Shown here: one piece after another, positions 2,374 through 53,745 of the stretch | How the letters are laid out: each line of letters opens with the position of its first letter | How positions within the stretch are numbered: position 1 is the stretch's first letter | Assembly (NCBI GenBank): GCA_029861865.1 | Contig: JAOTYL010000001.1 | Span: 624,536-688,535, forward strand | Source of the DNA: Myxococcales bacterium | GTDB lineage: Bacteria; Myxococcota_A; Polyangia; Polyangiales; Houyiibacteriaceae | Length of the DNA stretch: 64,000 bases | Direction of reading: 5' to 3' | Notes under the pieces: model-generated | Databases searched by the model: none | The model's input: only the letters and a program-made list of their open reading frames with translations | Told to the model about the DNA's origin: nothing | Translations under genes and position numbers: made by a program

Positions 2374-3235
2374 CAGGCCTGAATCTTAGCAGCGGAGGTC
2401 CCGGGTCGTTAGTGCGACGTCCGTCAACTATGAGGTAGGTTACACCTGCCGCGAGAAGCGCACCGACGACGAAGTAAGGCCAGGCCTTCTTGATCCATCG
2501 TTTTTTCTCGGGTTCATCGGTGGGCTTGCCGGTCGCGTCGACTTGAGCGCCTGCCGCGTCAGGGGGGCTTGGGTCCTGGAGCCATCGTGTCTGCGCTGTC
2601 TCAGCGCGACGCTCGATGTAGTGCGCGCGCTCCTCGGGTGTCGTGCCATCGAAGTCGAGGGCTCCTTCATAAAACTGGGAAGCGGCCGCATCGAAGACTT
2701 CGATTTTGATGGTGCCTTCGCGGCGAAGAACGACCAGCGCGTCCGCTCCGGTAATGGTGCCGAGACGCTTGTACGAGGCAAGATCCTTCCGGGGATCGAC
2801 GCCGAGACTCCGCCGAATCGAACGAAGCCCATCAAGCCCATCTTCCTCGGAGTCCGGCTCACCGCGGAGGGCCGCGCGGAGAGCCGGGTCGGCGGGGATG
2901 CTGAGCCCCGCGCGAGCGCACTCCTGCTCGATTTCGGAGGCGGTTTTGAGGACCGATTCATCGGGATCGCCGGCAACGACAACGGCAACTTTGGGAGGGA
3001 GGGGAGGGGCCGTGTCAGTGCCAGGATCAGCGACAGTGTCAGTGTCAGCGCCAGTGCCAGCGCCAGTGTCGGTTTCAGTGCCAGTGTCAGTGTCAGCGCC
3101 AGCGACAGTGCCAGTGTCCGTGCCAGTGTCAGTGCCAGCGATAGTGCCCTCTTGCGCCGAAGCGCTAGCCGCGGTGAGGAGTAGGCCTAGGCTCAGGATC
3201 AGGCGCACCGGTGGACGATAGGCAACGAGGGCCAT
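2363..3235 (-). CDS. Exported protein with Thr/Gly/Asp repeat linker and C-terminal membrane anchor
   Basis: The 290-residue protein has a signal peptide (LILSLGLLLTAASASAQ), then about 45 residues of low-complexity Gly/Thr/Asp (GTDTGTDTGTVAGADTDTG), then a globular domain beginning near PPKVAVVVAGDPDES, and finally a transmembrane helix (YFVVGALLAAGVTYLIV). The linker is encoded by a hexamer repeat tract that also occurs between genes elsewhere in this window. The gene precedes and overlaps the metallopeptidase gene by 11 bases, suggesting a two-gene unit at the cell envelope. I do not recognise the globular domain. Confidence 0.7.
   Translation of the reverse strand: MALVAYRPPVRLILSLGLLLTAASASAQEGTIAGTDTGTDTGTVAGADTDTGTETDTGAGTGADTDTVADPGTDTAPPLPPKVAVVVAGDPDESVLKTASEIEQECARAGLSIPADPALRAALRGEPDSEEDGLDGLRSIRRSLGVDPRKDLASYKRLGTITGADALVVLRREGTIKIEVFDAAASQFYEGALDFDGTTPEERAHYIERRAETAQTRWLQDPSPPDAAGAQVDATGKPTDEPEKKRWIKKAWPYFVVGALLAAGVTYLIVDGRRTNDPGPPLLRFRPGDE
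3012..3148. repeat. Degenerate hexamer tract inside a coding sequence
   Basis: Units of the type CAGTGY/CAGCGC (reverse strand RCTGRC/ACTGGC) repeat for about 137 bases. It encodes the Thr/Gly/Asp linker of the 2363-3235 gene. Because the period is six, copy-number changes keep the reading frame. Related tracts occur at 23921-23995, 25911-25960, 38953-39030 and 53681-53745. Confidence 0.85.
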
Positions 3236-10273: not shown

Positions 10274-12513
<2,240 letters not shown>

Positions 12514-12756
12514 GGTGCTCCTGTACCTAGGCAGCGAAAAGCGTTGCCAGCGGCAACCAGGACTATTCCGCAGTTTGCACGATGGTCAAGTCAACAATTG
12601 CACGAACAGACTTGTAGGGCCATTTTCAGGTGAAAAACAAGAATAAATATATGACTAAAAGAGTCAAGATTGTGGGTTTCTCCCACTCGGTTGCTGCCCC
12701 AAGCGCTGCCGCTATAGTGCCGCCGCTCGGCGCCCGATGTTAAGGTGTCGCTCCAT
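12514..12756. promoter_or_regulatory. AT-rich intergenic region between the reductase operon and tRNA-Gln
   Basis: These 243 bases hold no gene. They are clearly more AT-rich than their surroundings around 12590-12680. Two inverted repeats are visible: GTTGCC-AGC-GGCAAC at 12543-12557, shortly upstream of the reductase start, and GTGGG-TTTCT-CCCAC at 12672-12686. Promoters for the leftward reductase operon and rightward tRNA genes must lie here. The first repeat is a candidate operator. Confidence 0.5.
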
Positions 12757-12827
12757 TCGGGGATCGTCTAACGGCAGGACTCCAGTTTCTGGTACTGGCT
12801 ATCTAGGTTCGAATCCTAGTCCCCGAG
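12757..12827 (+). tRNA. tRNA-Gln(CTG)
   Basis: The acceptor strands TCGGGGA and TCCCCGA pair. The anticodon stem CCAGT/ACTGG holds the loop TTCTGGT with anticodon CTG. The T-arm is CTAGG-TTCGAAT-CCTAG and the discriminator is G. The gene is followed by CTA rather than CCA. A copy of the 3' end followed by CCA occurs 240 bases downstream, so the original 3' end appears to have been displaced by a tandem duplication. Confidence 0.9.
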
Positions 12828-13069
12828 CTACTGAACAGCTAAAGGAGGTGCTCACAGGGAACCCGGATGCCCACGCTTCGAGAGCGGTCCAGCTGAGGCT
12901 GGCCCGCGTTTGGTCTCGCGCGTGCGGTTCGAATCCTAGTCCCCGAGCTACTGAACAGCTAAAGGAGGTGCTCACAGGGAACCCGGATGCCCACGCTTCG
13001 AGAGCGGTCCAGCTGAGGCTGGCCCGCGTTTGGTCTCGCGCGTGCGGTTCGAATCCTAGTCCCCGAGCC
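12807..13069 (+). repeat. Perfect 120-bp tandem repeat containing the tRNA-Gln 3' end
   Basis: Two identical 120-bp units (12807-12926 and 12927-13046) are followed by a 23-base partial third copy (13047-13069). Each unit begins with the 3' part of the tRNA-Gln gene (T-loop through discriminator). The remaining ~97 bases are non-tRNA sequence with a CCAGC-TGAG-GCTGG hairpin and the string AAAGGAGGTG. The first two tRNA ends read GCTA and the last reads GCCA. Confidence 0.95.
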
Positions 13070-13097
13070 AGCCTTCTGTTACGAAGGCCCGACTCAA

Positions 13098-13172
13098 GGC
13101 CCCATCGTCTAGTGGTTAGGACATCGGCCTCTCACGCCGGTAACGCGAGTTCGAACCTCGCTGGGGTCACCA
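13098..13172 (+). tRNA. tRNA-Glu(CTC)
   Basis: The acceptor GGCCCCA pairs with TGGGGTC (one G-U), the D-arm is ATCGTCTAGTGGTTAGGAC, the anticodon loop is CTCTCAC with anticodon CTC, and the T-loop is TTCGAAC. The discriminator A is followed by an encoded CCA. It lies 29 bases after the last tRNA-Gln 3'-end copy and is probably co-transcribed with tRNA-Gln. Confidence 0.95.
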
Positions 13173-13176
13173 CTGT

Positions 13177-13199
13177 AGCCCGGCTTCGGCCGGGCTTTT
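13177..13199 (+). terminator. Rho-independent terminator after the tRNA pair
   Basis: A perfect 8-bp stem AGCCCGGC/GCCGGGCT encloses a TTCG tetraloop and is followed by TTT. It ends the tRNA-Gln/tRNA-Glu transcript, and the convergent beta-helix gene stops just beyond it. Confidence 0.9.
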
Positions 13200-13202
13200 C
13201 AG

Positions 13203-15245
13203 CTAACGCCGACGCAAGCGTCGCCTGAGCGACAGAGCCAAGGCGCAGCACAGCAGGGCGAGCCACGTTGCCGAAGGCCTTGACGGTGCAGCGCTGCCGA
13301 CCGTGCATCCGCCACCACCATTGTCGGCATCCGCTCCACCCGTGCCGCCGCTGCCCGCGTCGCCGCCTGCTCCACCGACACCGCCCATTCCGCCAGCGCC
13401 GCCGGTTCCCGGGGGATCCTCCGGACACGGCGGTAGTGTTCCGGCTAGCGAGAAGAACGTGTCGAAGTCGTTGTCCGCGAAGCAGTTTCCGCGGGGGCCG
13501 GCTGTCAGCAACGCGAGGTCGCCAGCGAAGTCTTTGAACGGGTTGTCGGGTTTGACATTTGTTGCGTTGTTCAGGACGATATTTCCCACGATGCGATTGT
13601 TCTCGGCAGCCTGGTCCGCGAGGAATCCAGGCGCCATCATCACGTCGGGATCGACTTCGCAGTCAAACATGGGATCCCCGTCAAACGGGATGCAATAGTC
13701 GACGACGCCAATCCCAACGAAGTCGTGATTTTCGACCGTGTTCCCCGAGGCCACTGACTCGTCCACTCCCACATAGAGGATGCCGATTCCGCTCGGGATG
13801 CCGGAGAGGATAGCGCCCGGCCGCGCGGTGTTTTCCCTGTTGTTGTCGTGGATATCGTTGCCCATGAGGTTGATGCGTTTGGCGCTGCCTCTGTTGGGAT
13901 ATATGTCCGGGAGGAGCAGGATGGCCGCGCCGACCGTGTTGTTTCGGGACTCATTGCCCATGACCATGACGTCGTCGCTGTTCGACACCTCGATGCCGTT
14001 GACGCTGTCTTCGACGAGATTGTTGATGACGCGGACGCGCTCGGAAGTCTCGACCCAGAGTGCGCTATCCAAGTCTGAACCCGTGGAATAGCTGTTTTGG
14101 ATCAAGCCGTCCCTCGATAGGACGGGGAAGATTCCATAGTTCCGGTTGTCGATCGATTCGACGTCCTCGAACGTGAAGCGCTCGACGTGCTCGGTGAAGA
14201 GCCCGTTGTTCTCGAAGCCTTGGATCGTGATGCCTTGGATCACGATGTCGCTGAGCCAGGGCTCGTTTTCCTTCGGGATGATCTTCGGCACGTTCGGATG
14301 CAGGGGGAAGGGCGGCGCCATGTCCGTGTGACAGCCCATGCAGTCGGTCCGTTCGACATGGAGCGAGTCGACCCCCTTGGGCTGCGCCGCTTGCGGAACC
14401 TCCGGCGGCACAATGACAATACCGTTGCGCTGAGTGCCGGTGCTCCTCACGATCACGCGCTCCTCGTCGAGGCTTTCCGGCCCGGCTGCCGCGGTGCTCA
14501 GCCCGATCAGTTGGATTCCGTTCTTGGTGATTTCGAGCCCGTTGTCCACGTTGCAGGGTTCTTCGTAGACGCCAGGCTCGACCTCGATCCGGGTGTCCTC
14601 TTCTGCCTGATCGAGGGCCGCCTGGATCGACTGGCCCTGCGTGACGGTGATCGTGCCGTCCCCGATCTGCTCGGGGGGAATCGGATCGCGCTGGCAGTCG
14701 CCGCCAGCGCCACCGGTGCCGCCCATGCCGCCCATGCCACCAGCCCCGCCAGCGCCATCCGGATCGTACGGCTCGAGGCCCTGCACCGGGTCCTGATTTA
14801 AGATCGTGGCGACTTGGGTGAAGATCGTGTTGTTGGGTCCCGTGGTCCAGCCGGGCTGTGCGCCGGCGTTGATCTCGGTGACGTTGTCGCTACCGGTGGG
14901 GTCGCCGGGAAAGTCGGAGTCGTCCGTCTCAACGCAAGCAAACACCTCATCCAGGCTGAGGGTGCCATTCATTGGGGACCCGTCAGCGCCGTCGCATGCC
15001 AGGTCGCCTGTCGCGTCGAAAATGTCCCAGCCGTACCCGTTCCATTCGGGAACGGATGTGTTCCCGTGGCACAACTGGCAGTCCGCGTTACCCGGAATGG
15101 GAATGGGGCCGTAGAAAGTTTCCCAAGCGTTCCGTATCGCCGGGGTCGCACTCGCAGGCGGCCCGCCGACCAAGAACACAACAAGTGCCGCGCCCAGGAC
15201 GAGCAAGCACCAGGTTCGTAGACTCGCGAAAACAGATGTACGCAT
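13203..15245 (-). CDS. Exported di-heme parallel beta-helix protein with glycine-rich linkers
   Basis: From ATG 15245 (GGAG upstream) the product has 680 residues. In order it shows a signal peptide (LVLGAALVVFLVGG), a heme-binding CQLCH at 56-60, a GG-x linker near 164-182, and a right-handed beta-helix region (about 190-600) of NosD/PbH1 type with repeated N/D-rich turns. A second CMGCH (302-306) lies inside the helix. A second GG-x block and a hydrophobic helix with an Arg-rich end (LSLRRRLRRR) close the protein, as in MYXO-CTERM surface proteins. It probably acts outside the cell, binding or processing a polysaccharide with redox capability; that role is inference. Confidence 0.75.
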   Translation of the reverse strand: MRTSVFASLRTWCLLVLGAALVVFLVGGPPASATPAIRNAWETFYGPIPIPGNADCQLCHGNTSVPEWNGYGWDIFDATGDLACDGADGSPMNGTLSLDEVFACVETDDSDFPGDPTGSDNVTEINAGAQPGWTTGPNNTIFTQVATILNQDPVQGLEPYDPDGAGGAGGMGGMGGTGGAGGDCQRDPIPPEQIGDGTITVTQGQSIQAALDQAEEDTRIEVEPGVYEEPCNVDNGLEITKNGIQLIGLSTAAAGPESLDEERVIVRSTGTQRNGIVIVPPEVPQAAQPKGVDSLHVERTDCMGCHTDMAPPFPLHPNVPKIIPKENEPWLSDIVIQGITIQGFENNGLFTEHVERFTFEDVESIDNRNYGIFPVLSRDGLIQNSYSTGSDLDSALWVETSERVRVINNLVEDSVNGIEVSNSDDVMVMGNESRNNTVGAAILLLPDIYPNRGSAKRINLMGNDIHDNNRENTARPGAILSGIPSGIGILYVGVDESVASGNTVENHDFVGIGVVDYCIPFDGDPMFDCEVDPDVMMAPGFLADQAAENNRIVGNIVLNNATNVKPDNPFKDFAGDLALLTAGPRGNCFADNDFDTFFSLAGTLPPCPEDPPGTGGAGGMGGVGGAGGDAGSGGTGGADADNGGGGCTVGSAAPSRPSATWLALLCCALALSLRRRLRRR

Positions 15246-23661: not shown

Positions 23662-23738
<77 letters not shown>

Positions 23739-23763
23739 CCACCCGCCCAGTGAGGGCGGGTGG
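23739..23763 (+). terminator. Stem-loop directly after tRNA-Asp
   Basis: A perfect 10-bp GC stem, CCACCCGCCC/GGGCGGGTGG, encloses AGTGA. No T-run follows, so it may be a processing or stability hairpin or a weak terminator. Confidence 0.6.
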
Positions 23764-23886
23764 CGTCGCGTCCTCCGGTCCTCTCACCGGGGTGTACTCG
23801 CGCCCTTTGGGCGCTGCGTACTGCGTTTGGAACGCTGAGCTACACGGACTGACGTCCGTTCCGCTTCGCAGCGTTCCAACCGCACA
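23764..23886 (+). other. Structured non-coding block between tRNA-Asp and its first 3'-end copy
   Basis: No gene is visible. Several perfect inverted repeats are packed here: GCGCCC-TTT-GGGCGC (23800-23814), and a nested pair in which the outer arms TTGGAACGCTG (23827-23837) and CAGCGTTCCAA (23869-23879) enclose ACGGAC-TGAC-GTCCGT (23844-23859). This is dense enough to suggest a structured RNA or a recombination site rather than random spacer. No family is recognised. Confidence 0.5.
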
Positions 23887-23905
23887 CGAGTCCCGTCCGC
23901 CGCGC
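23887..23905 (+). repeat. Second copy of the tRNA-Asp 3' end
   Basis: The 19 bases CGAGTCCCGTCCGCCGCGC are identical to 23718-23736 inside tRNA-Asp (T-loop through the start of CCA). No other tRNA part accompanies it. It marks the end of the structured block and looks like an attachment-site-type direct repeat. Confidence 0.85.
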
Positions 23906-23920
23906 TAACACCCGGCCCCT

Positions 23921-23995
23921 GCGTCAGCGCCAGTGTCAGTGACAGGGTCAGTGTCAGCGCCAGTGACAGCGTCCGTGTTAGGGCCTGTGTCAGTG
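23921..23995. repeat. Degenerate hexamer tract, intergenic
   Basis: Repeated units of the CAGCGC/CAGTGT/CAGTGA type run for about 75 bases just after the second tRNA-Asp 3'-end copy. It is the same repeat class as at 3012-3148. It does not encode a plausible protein here. Confidence 0.8.
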
Positions 23996-24142
23996 AGGGA
24001 CGCGCGGTCGTTTCGTCGCCAATCCCACCGAACGCAGATCTTTCGGCCACGGTTCTGTAAAGCCCACAAGAATCCGCGGTTTTGCGTTGGCACACCGCAT
24101 GCATTTACATGCCTCTACTTGGTGGCGGTCTGGTAGGGAGCG

Positions 24143-24679
24143 TTGCAACCGAGGAGGGTTCTCATCCGTTACTTTTTCGGATTTCTATGTGTCTGTGCGC
24201 TGGACGTAGTGCCGTTGCCCCGGAGCGCGAGCGCACAGGCCGGTGAGGGAGCCACGACCTCTGAGTCCGCGCCCTCGTCTGAGCCAGCATCTGAAGAGCC
24301 CGTGTTGCAGCTCGAGCTAACCCTTGCCGGTGTTGACGTTGCGCCAAGCCCGCCACGGACGGTCGACGGATACACGCTTGAGGAGATGGATCTTCGTGTG
24401 CGGCGAGCGCGGATCGGGCTCATCAGCTCCGCTGCTGTTTTGGTTGTTGGTGGGGTGCTCCTGGGGGTTGCCGGCGCTAGCGCTAACATCGTTACTGACG
24501 AGAGCTTGGGGCTCCTTTGGGGCGGGGTGGCTCTGGCGGGGATCGGCTCCGTCGGGATGATTGCCACCGGCATCCTGCTGGGCGTCCGCAAGCGAAAGCG
24601 GCGCAAGTTGCACGAAGCGGACTATGGCAGACCGCGCAAAGTTCAATGGGATCTGGCAAGATCTCGAGTCGTGTTCTGA
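24143..24679 (+). CDS. Small exported membrane protein of an unknown paralogous family
   Basis: The ~178-residue product has a signal peptide (FFGFLCVCALDVVPLPRSASAQA), an acidic Ser/Pro/Glu stretch, and two transmembrane helices (LISSAAVLVVGGVLLGVAGA and LWGGVALAGIGSVGMIATGI). A basic tail ends in VQWDLARSRVVF. The same tail is encoded again at 26611-26676, so the window held at least two paralogues. The start is uncertain: a TTG at 24143 gives the frame shown, but a strong AGGAGG lies inside it, six bases before an ATC codon, with no ATG or GTG at the expected place. It sits inside the segment bounded by tRNA-Asp 3'-end copies. Function unknown. Confidence 0.6.
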   Translation: MQPRRVLIRYFFGFLCVCALDVVPLPRSASAQAGEGATTSESAPSSEPASEEPVLQLELTLAGVDVAPSPPRTVDGYTLEEMDLRVRRARIGLISSAAVLVVGGVLLGVAGASANIVTDESLGLLWGGVALAGIGSVGMIATGILLGVRKRKRRKLHEADYGRPRKVQWDLARSRVVF

Positions 24680-25248
24680 GCGGTGTGACGCCCCGGCGGC
24701 ACGATGTGCGACGTGGGGGCGTTTGAGTTGGAGAAGTAGTTACCCTCCCAGTCGAGCAAACAACTCAACCGAGCGCCTTGGCGTCGAGGTGGCGCCCCTC
24801 TTCTCTTGCGGCCTTGATCGCGCGCATGAGTTGGACATTTTTGAGGCTCTGGTGTCTCTACGTTACCCGAGGGTCCCTTTTCGTGCCTTTGTAGCGCAGC
24901 GTTTCGAGTCCCGTCCGCCGCGCCGCTTGTTGCGACAGACAAGTCGCAGCGTGCTCGACGGAGTCGACGAAGACCAAGGCGATGAGTCGCTCGATGCCGG
25001 GTGGGCCATGTTCGACGGCGAAAAGCGCGTTCTGGAAATGAGTGGCCCCAGAGAGCCCCAACGGGGAAGCGCAGGGTCCGACATGCTAGTTGCCGGCGGG
25101 CGTGACGGGCTGCGTACGAAACTTGGCGGCGCGCAACGGGCTCATCGGCGAGAGCGGTTCACTTTGGTTCCTTGAGAGAGATGAGCCTGGGTGATAGGGT
25201 CGAAAGAAACTGTCAACGCTATCAGACCTTAAACGCAGTGAGGTTGGG
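24680..25248. other. Gene-poor stretch with a tRNA-Asp 3'-end copy
   Basis: These 569 bases contain no convincing gene on either strand; the open frames have unlikely composition and no start signals. The only recognisable item is the third tRNA-Asp 3'-end copy at 24903-24924. Confidence 0.55.
24903..24924 (+). repeat. Third copy of the tRNA-Asp 3' end
   Basis: Twenty-two bases from TTCGAGTC through CCGCCGCGCC are identical to 23716-23737 of tRNA-Asp. It lies 1.2 kb from the tRNA and bounds the segment holding the structured block, the hexamer tract and the small membrane-protein gene. Confidence 0.85.
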
Positions 25249-38952: not shown

Positions 38953-39030
38953 CGGGCGCTGACGCCGGTACTGGCGCTGGCACCGTCACGGACACTGCCA
39001 CTGCCACTGACACGGACGCTGGCACTGCCA
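38953..39030. repeat. Degenerate hexamer tract beside tRNA-Val
   Basis: About 78 bases of GCTGGC/CACTGC/CACTGA/CACGGA-type units lie directly downstream of the tRNA-Val 3' end (leftward). It is the same repeat class as the tract following tRNA-Asp. Confidence 0.8.
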
Positions 39031-39039
39031 CTGCTTCGG

Positions 39040-53583: not shown

Positions 53584-53680
53584 GCTAGGGGGAGTCGTCC
53601 AAACGGCGCGGCCTGGGGGGGGCCGCCGCCGGGCGGACACTTTTAATCAGCGGCAGTGTGAGCACCCCTTGACGCACAGC

Positions 53681-53745
53681 ACCGACAGTGACGCTGGCAC
53701 TGGCACTGGCACTGACGCTGGCACTGGCGCTGTCACTGTTTCGAG
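53681..53745. repeat. Degenerate hexamer tract, intergenic
   Basis: About 65 bases of GACGCT/GGCACT/GGCGCT units lie between the Crp/Fnr-type gene and the mlaC stop. It is the fifth occurrence of this repeat class. The stretch 53584-53761 holds nothing else recognisable apart from a G-rich run near 53615. Confidence 0.8.

Follow-up and report, generated by a model that had tools for sequence, protein, structure and literature searches.

Why does the 3′ end of a tRNA gene occur three times in a row, and where does the sequence between the copies come from? The question is raised by a complete tRNA-Gln(CTG) gene in the window, by which we mean the whole 64,000-nucleotide stretch analysed (C6:624536-688535 of G000, a 4.2-Mb draft genome of 23 contigs, hereafter this genome). 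The features of the array and the next gene are as follows.

12757..12828, + strand: tRNA-Gln(CTG), complete, the insertion host (ARAGORN; Rfam RF00005, 53.9 bits)
12806..12828, + strand: repeat copy 1, positions 52-C74 of tRNA-Gln, the left att-like copy
12829..12925, + strand: family-1 element, copy 1, 97 bp (similarity to the tRNA-Arg element; model R1)
12926..12948, + strand: repeat copy 2 of the tRNA-Gln 3′ end
12949..13045, + strand: family-1 element, copy 2, 97 bp, identical to copy 1
13046..13068, + strand: repeat copy 3, the original tRNA-Gln end now displaced; CA follows (GCCA), then a native-like flank
13098..13172, + strand: tRNA-Glu(CTC), the next gene, on the same strand (ARAGORN)

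TRF reported the array at 12806-13068 with a period of 120, 2.2 copies, a match of 100% and a score of 526. The 23-mer GGTTCGAATCCTAGTCCCCGAGC, corresponding to tRNA-Gln(CTG) from position 52 in the T-arm to C74, begins at 12806, 12926 and 13046. Letter for letter, both full 120-bp units are identical. A perfect 120-bp tandem duplication repeating the tRNA-Gln 3′ end three times, as announced in a preliminary description of this DNA, is thus present, although the limits given there (12807-13069) were one base off. That description also placed CCA after the last copy only, and indeed GCCA is found at copy 3 and GCTA at copies 1 and 2. Since the first unit begins within tRNA-Gln, what was inserted amounts to two 120-bp units, and the partial third copy represents the original 3′ end; with the left copy providing a 3′ end, the gene remains whole. 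The element at 12829..12925 matches model R1 with an E-value of 4.9e-26, its sequence being in the R1 training set. The sole long reading frame over the array (12737-13228) passes through the tRNAs.

Some neighbouring details were noted in passing. An inverted repeat and T's 3′ of tRNA-Glu (about 13178-13199) appear terminator-like by eye and were left unflagged by the scan. ARAGORN called a tRNA-Ser(CGA) at 14081-14172 within a long ORF, probably falsely, as it is missing from the Rfam tRNA list of the genome. Repeats of 6/12 bp of the CAGTGTCAGTGCC type occur in the window at 3012-3138, 23921-23996, 38987-39034 and 53679-53738, two of these arrays adjoining tRNA genes.

We then compared tRNA-Gln sites in relatives, as the preliminary description had suggested, and empty sites do exist. 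In these relatives, too, tRNA-Glu comes after tRNA-Gln. The gap between the two genes measures 269 nt in this genome with its two family-1 units, 155 nt in the sister species G018, which has one unit, and 31-76 nt in nine congeneric species that have none. Subtraction of 240 and 120 from the two occupied gaps leaves 29 and 35 nt, matching the size of the smaller empty gaps. These remainders, together with the single unit in G018, indicate that material was inserted and that the original tRNA-Gln end now lies downstream.

A search with the 120-bp unit revealed a second family-1 place in this genome, tRNA-Arg(TCG) on contig C22; the other matches inspected, away from Gln and Arg, were attributed to chance. 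The tRNA-Arg and tRNA-Gln cores share 83% identity over 69 bp (E 1.8e-11), and the repeats flanking the tRNA-Arg core are GGTTCGAATCCTTCCGGGTGTGC, the 3′ end of tRNA-Arg itself. In G018 the tRNA-Arg site is empty and the downstream sequence nearly identical to that of this genome, so the insertion there can be defined as 117 bp: a 94-bp core and a 23-bp duplication. Homologous cores at two different tRNAs, each carrying the repeat of its own tRNA end, together with empty sites, point to a mobile unit that was inserted. These sequence comparisons give good support to a mobile mini-element having been inserted at the T-loop, in agreement with the earlier suggestion of a minimal element of about 97 bp at a tRNA 3′ end that pushed the original end downstream. 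As a side observation, a dispersed repeat of ~110 bp lies upstream of tRNA-Arg (locus L063, about 1304-1415) and has many copies in the genus; a similar sequence follows a family-2 module (see below) in G021, in reverse orientation.

A tandem duplication arising locally, and without a mobile element, would account for the identical units at tRNA-Gln and their exact period, and by eye the first ~20 bp after the first tRNA-Gln copy are like the native downstream flank. It is contradicted by the tRNA-Arg core with its own tRNA end and by the empty sites, which require foreign sequence, and as an explanation of the locus it is very improbable, surviving for the second unit only. For that unit, the two identical copies here against the single one in G018 favour a single insertion whose unit was then duplicated in tandem between short direct repeats, an account that explains the array better than the repeated integration first put forward.

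Family 1 looks rare: run against 184 order and 379 phylum genomes, its covariance model, built from the Gln and Arg copies, found members only in this genome and G018. There are two sites in all, tRNA-Gln in both species and tRNA-Arg in one of them. Pattern scans of genome and viral contigs for family 1 yielded solely matches lacking a tRNA or a repeat, judged to be chance. Copies of the unit in non-tRNA contexts, which the preliminary description had named as evidence against its reading, were not encountered for family 1, although modules of the second family do occur off tRNAs in other genera.

This second gene-less family is unrelated to family 1 and has the same build. Its elements, of 145-175 bp, lie at tRNA-Leu, Asp, Lys and Asn, and one of them is in the window.

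23662..23738, + strand: tRNA-Asp(GTC) with a family-2 element, same architecture as the Gln array (ARAGORN)
23718..23736, + strand: repeat copy 1, C56-C74 of tRNA-Asp
23737..23886, + strand: family-2 element, gene-less and structured (model match 23771-23893)
23887..23905, + strand: repeat copy 2 of tRNA-Asp C56-C74
23906..24904, no strand assigned: segment of ~1.0 kb between tail copies 2 and 3, with an ORF at 24143-24679 (178 aa)
24905..24923, + strand: repeat copy 3 of tRNA-Asp C56-C74, without a tRNA body

The tRNA-Asp element scores 126.7 bits with model R2 and 117.7 bits with model R3, being a training sequence of both; the ~1.0-kb segment behind it is probably a second insertion in tandem. 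We checked 44 tRNAs (ARAGORN calls in stretches around the tRNA places of this genome) for 3′-end repeats. tRNA-Asp, Leu(aag) and Leu(cag) have a family-2 element whose right repeat begins at C56; the one at Leu(taa) runs off a contig end. The minimal family-2 duplication is C56-C74 (19 bp), that at Leu(cag) in this genome 37 bp, and across elements the length varies between these values. Ahead of C56, family-2 right repeats have CACA in place of the T-loop bases GGTT. In family 1, GGTT exists on both sides of the element, so the same insertion point as in family 2, T55|C56, fits.

Model R2, made from three copies, gave matches at E up to 0.05 in 34 of the 184 order genomes. Within the genus family 2 is present in 17 of 19 genomes, and the strong matches lie directly 3′ of tRNA-Leu(cag, aag, taa), Asp, Lys and Asn. 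Occupation varies: tRNA-Lys bears an element in G018 and tRNA-Asn in G010, both sites being without one in this genome. At the tRNA-Lys of G018 (L328), the 3′ strand of the T-stem reads CCTGG in the tRNA (pairing with CCAGG) and CCAGG in the downstream tail copy; in this genome it is CCAGG. In other genera, family-2 hairpin modules are also found off tRNAs (for example L331-L339, in G053 and G021), inside dispersed MITE-like repeats of ~230-300 bp with terminal inverted repeats. Rfam searches of both families returned the tRNA alone above cut-off. A viral scan with the family-2 hairpin motif produced matches resembling coding coincidences and another viral scan was empty; blastn against plasmids and phages was negative apart from one weak cystovirus match that was put down to chance.

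These copies also bear on whether the second unit at tRNA-Gln could be an artefact of assembly, the true state being one unit as in G018. With its 263 bp the array may be longer than a short read, and the assembly is a draft in 23 contigs. Repeats are however usually collapsed rather than multiplied by assemblers, and tandem family-2 copies are seen in several other species, lying ~165 bp apart at tRNA-Leu(cag) in G018, G013 and G011; in some tandems the units differ. We consider an artefact improbable.

The fold of family 2 was examined in an alignment of 26 copies (A6), made against a model that holds the fold and hence leaning towards it, the slid controls being far lower. Paired cells amounted to 91.5%, and 23 of 36 pairs showed changes on both sides. 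The covariation score, 0.289 as compared with 0.106 after shuffling and 0.019-0.080 with partners slid, gives the fold strong support. The tRNA strand has more A-C mismatches (40) than G-U pairs (16), counted over cells that are not independent, the sequences being related. The strand opposite the tRNA has the lower MFE in 24 of 25 elements, with a consensus energy of -44.5 against -28.9 for the tRNA strand. The A-C excess and the lower energy suggest that the active family-2 strand is probably the one opposite to the tRNA, as folded DNA or antisense RNA.

This result matters for a different kind of explanation, in which the units are small-RNA genes transcribed along with the tRNA and retained for a role in the cell, as for RttR/tpr of E. 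coli tyrT, any mobility being ancient or incidental. In many species of the genus, family 2 with its conserved structure does follow tRNA-Leu(cag); on one strand and within about 420 bp lie tRNA-Gln, the array and tRNA-Glu; and the E. coli layout, which is the same, comes with an annotated small RNA. Presence at Gln, Arg, Lys and Asn varies, though, among closely related species, and substitutions favour the fold of the strand opposite the tRNA and not that of the co-transcribed strand. Retention for a small RNA is in our opinion unlikely.

With 94-175 bp between repeats, the mini-elements contain neither integrase nor transfer genes. The preliminary remark that no integrase lies nearby holds for the 64-kb window, where none was found; it does not hold for the rest of the genome, in which tyrosine integrases adjoin several tRNAs. 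Tyrosine-recombinase matches number seven each in this genome and in G018, several of them beside tRNAs. In G018, tRNA-Gly(gcc) is followed by a Phage_integrase gene (PF00589, E 1e-18), and the island ends 3.07 kb further on with a copy of the tRNA-Gly end (18/19). A family-2 motif lies directly before this right repeat (R3 31.5 bits, E 7e-6 in 151 kb), a modest score from one island. This island is likely the autonomous relative. In G015, an island related to an integrase-bearing one of this genome ends with a family-2 copy placed between the anticodon-arm remnant and the tail copy of tRNA-Thr; such an arrangement fits accretion at shared sites. No integrase-bearing relative with a family-1 end turned up, and the integrase link, as we infer it, concerns family 2 and comes from the single tRNA-Gly island.

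Two further islands were observed in this genome. At tRNA-fMet (C6; L362:672-2381), a large serine recombinase gene lies beside the tRNA, and ~4 kb beyond it two repeats of the tRNA-fMet end surround a weak family-2 match. At tRNA-Leu(taa) (C6:1-5985, L364), an island between two family-2 copies encodes a UG4-class reverse transcriptase, a MobP relaxase, a NikA-like protein and a REP-type transposase-like ORF, and no site-specific integrase was seen in it.

The latter island could suggest that the unit moved by reverse transcription, with an enzyme such as this UG4 protein (RT_UG4, E 3.5e-106), which together with the relaxase sits between two family-2 copies. A strong UG4 match is nevertheless restricted to this genome among the 19 of the genus (E 2e-105; next G014, 3e-33), as opposed to family 2 in 17 of them, and the enzyme has no tie to family 1. 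Counting further against it, UG4 has been linked to fimbrial neighbourhoods (PMC8934634). This distribution in the genus disfavours the UG4 reverse transcriptase as mobilizer, and we find a retroelement origin hardly credible.

We also looked at the relation between the elements and their targets. Many family-2 elements contain an inverted copy of a T-arm resembling that of the occupied tRNA, as at tRNA-Lys of G018; in G003, the Leu(taa) element has GGATTCG and its tRNA CGAATCC where others have CGAGTCC. In most family-2 elements, the inverted T-arm segment can pair with the right repeat, closing hairpins. An earlier permutation test of T-arm matching (1/5000) was discarded as confounded by related elements. 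As T-arms are alike and orthologous elements related, a fair test takes one element per tRNA type; the exact permutation over eight types then gave p = 0.035 for tRNA-matched pairing, and neither of the two family-1 elements ranked its own tRNA first. Pairing matched between element and tRNA end is thus suggestive, a lead with weak tRNA specificity.

The explanation that we favour, and hold to be fairly probable, is that a gene-less integrative element at the tRNA-Gln T-loop was moved in trans by a T-loop tyrosine integrase and later duplicated in tandem. An element of ~97 bp, with a 23-bp copy of the tRNA end, would have entered the T-loop region of tRNA-Gln. Its mover would be the tyrosine integrase of a T-loop island, as for cis-mobilizable elements, which keep attL/attR and have lost their genes. 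The second unit may have arisen by later slippage or recombination between the short direct repeats. The recombination substrate probably includes the conserved fold beside the right repeat and, more speculatively, could be a folded single strand. At 120 bp a unit would make a short double-stranded circle, and one may ask if single strands are the mobile form; a folded single strand is a plausible hypothesis. One may go further and imagine a new class of gene-less elements entering tRNA T-loops as folded single strands, in which the inverted T-arm copy pairs with the right repeat to form a double-stranded att core, the enclosed hairpins guide the tyrosine recombinase and the pairing segment is matched to the occupied tRNA. 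We put this forward tentatively, as a possible but rather doubtful extension. Points that count against the favoured explanation itself are the CACA in place of GGTT before C56 in family-2 right repeats, unusual for a 7-bp overlap, the spread of duplication lengths from 19 to 37 bp, the small number of family-1 sites, the weak tRNA specificity of the pairing and an integrase link that comes from one family-2 island.

Folded single-strand att sites are known in the integron attC and the CTXphi attP. As an analogy only, these resemble our elements in being short structured DNA beside a tyrosine-recombinase site, one strand folding better here. The present elements differ by their insertion at tRNA T-loops with duplications of 19-37 bp, and the attC core sites GTTRRRY and RYYYAAC are not evident by eye at the junctions. 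SEs are strand-biased circularizing integrative elements of the tyrosine-recombinase type with one-strand circularization (PMC9345347). They too serve as an analogy here, and differ in being kilobases long and encoding their own recombinases.

CIMEs are gene-less, att-flanked remnants known to form tandems (PMC5704250). Our elements share with these and with integrative mobilizable elements the direct repeats (attL/attR) including the target tRNA 3′ end, the whole tRNA, the lack of integration genes and tandem accretion (PMC5704250). Unlike CIMEs, they measure no more than 94-175 bp, are entirely free of genes and have a conserved fold; their cores at different tRNAs are related, and each is accompanied by the end of the tRNA it occupies. 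An end motif shared with an integrase island was found for family 2 only, in the tRNA-Gly island of G018, and not for family 1. The integrase gene beside the tRNA, typical of autonomous T-loop islands, is present in that island and absent from the mini-elements.

The closest layout of tRNA-end repeats is, to our knowledge, otherwise known from one E. coli tRNA operon. At tyrT (tyrTV) of E. coli K-12, the tRNA 3′ end from the T-loop onward is likewise repeated at a fixed period 3′ of a complete tRNA, with tail copies at 0, 178, 356 and 534 bp, units identical at 168-169 of 178 positions (94-95%) and a period of 178 in place of 120. The sequence is another one, the locus is single, and RttR and Tpr are annotated there; Rfam gave no RttR match in 12500-13500 of the window (tRNA alone over cut-off, other matches up to E 10 being weak). 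Here we find instead two families, several tRNAs, empty sites and an integrase island with a family-2 end motif. A pattern formerly known from that single operon hence recurs as tiny gene-less elements at several tRNA genes, with a rebuilt tRNA end and a conserved fold, and its empty, single and tandem alleles offer material on how tRNA genes tolerate and lose insertions.
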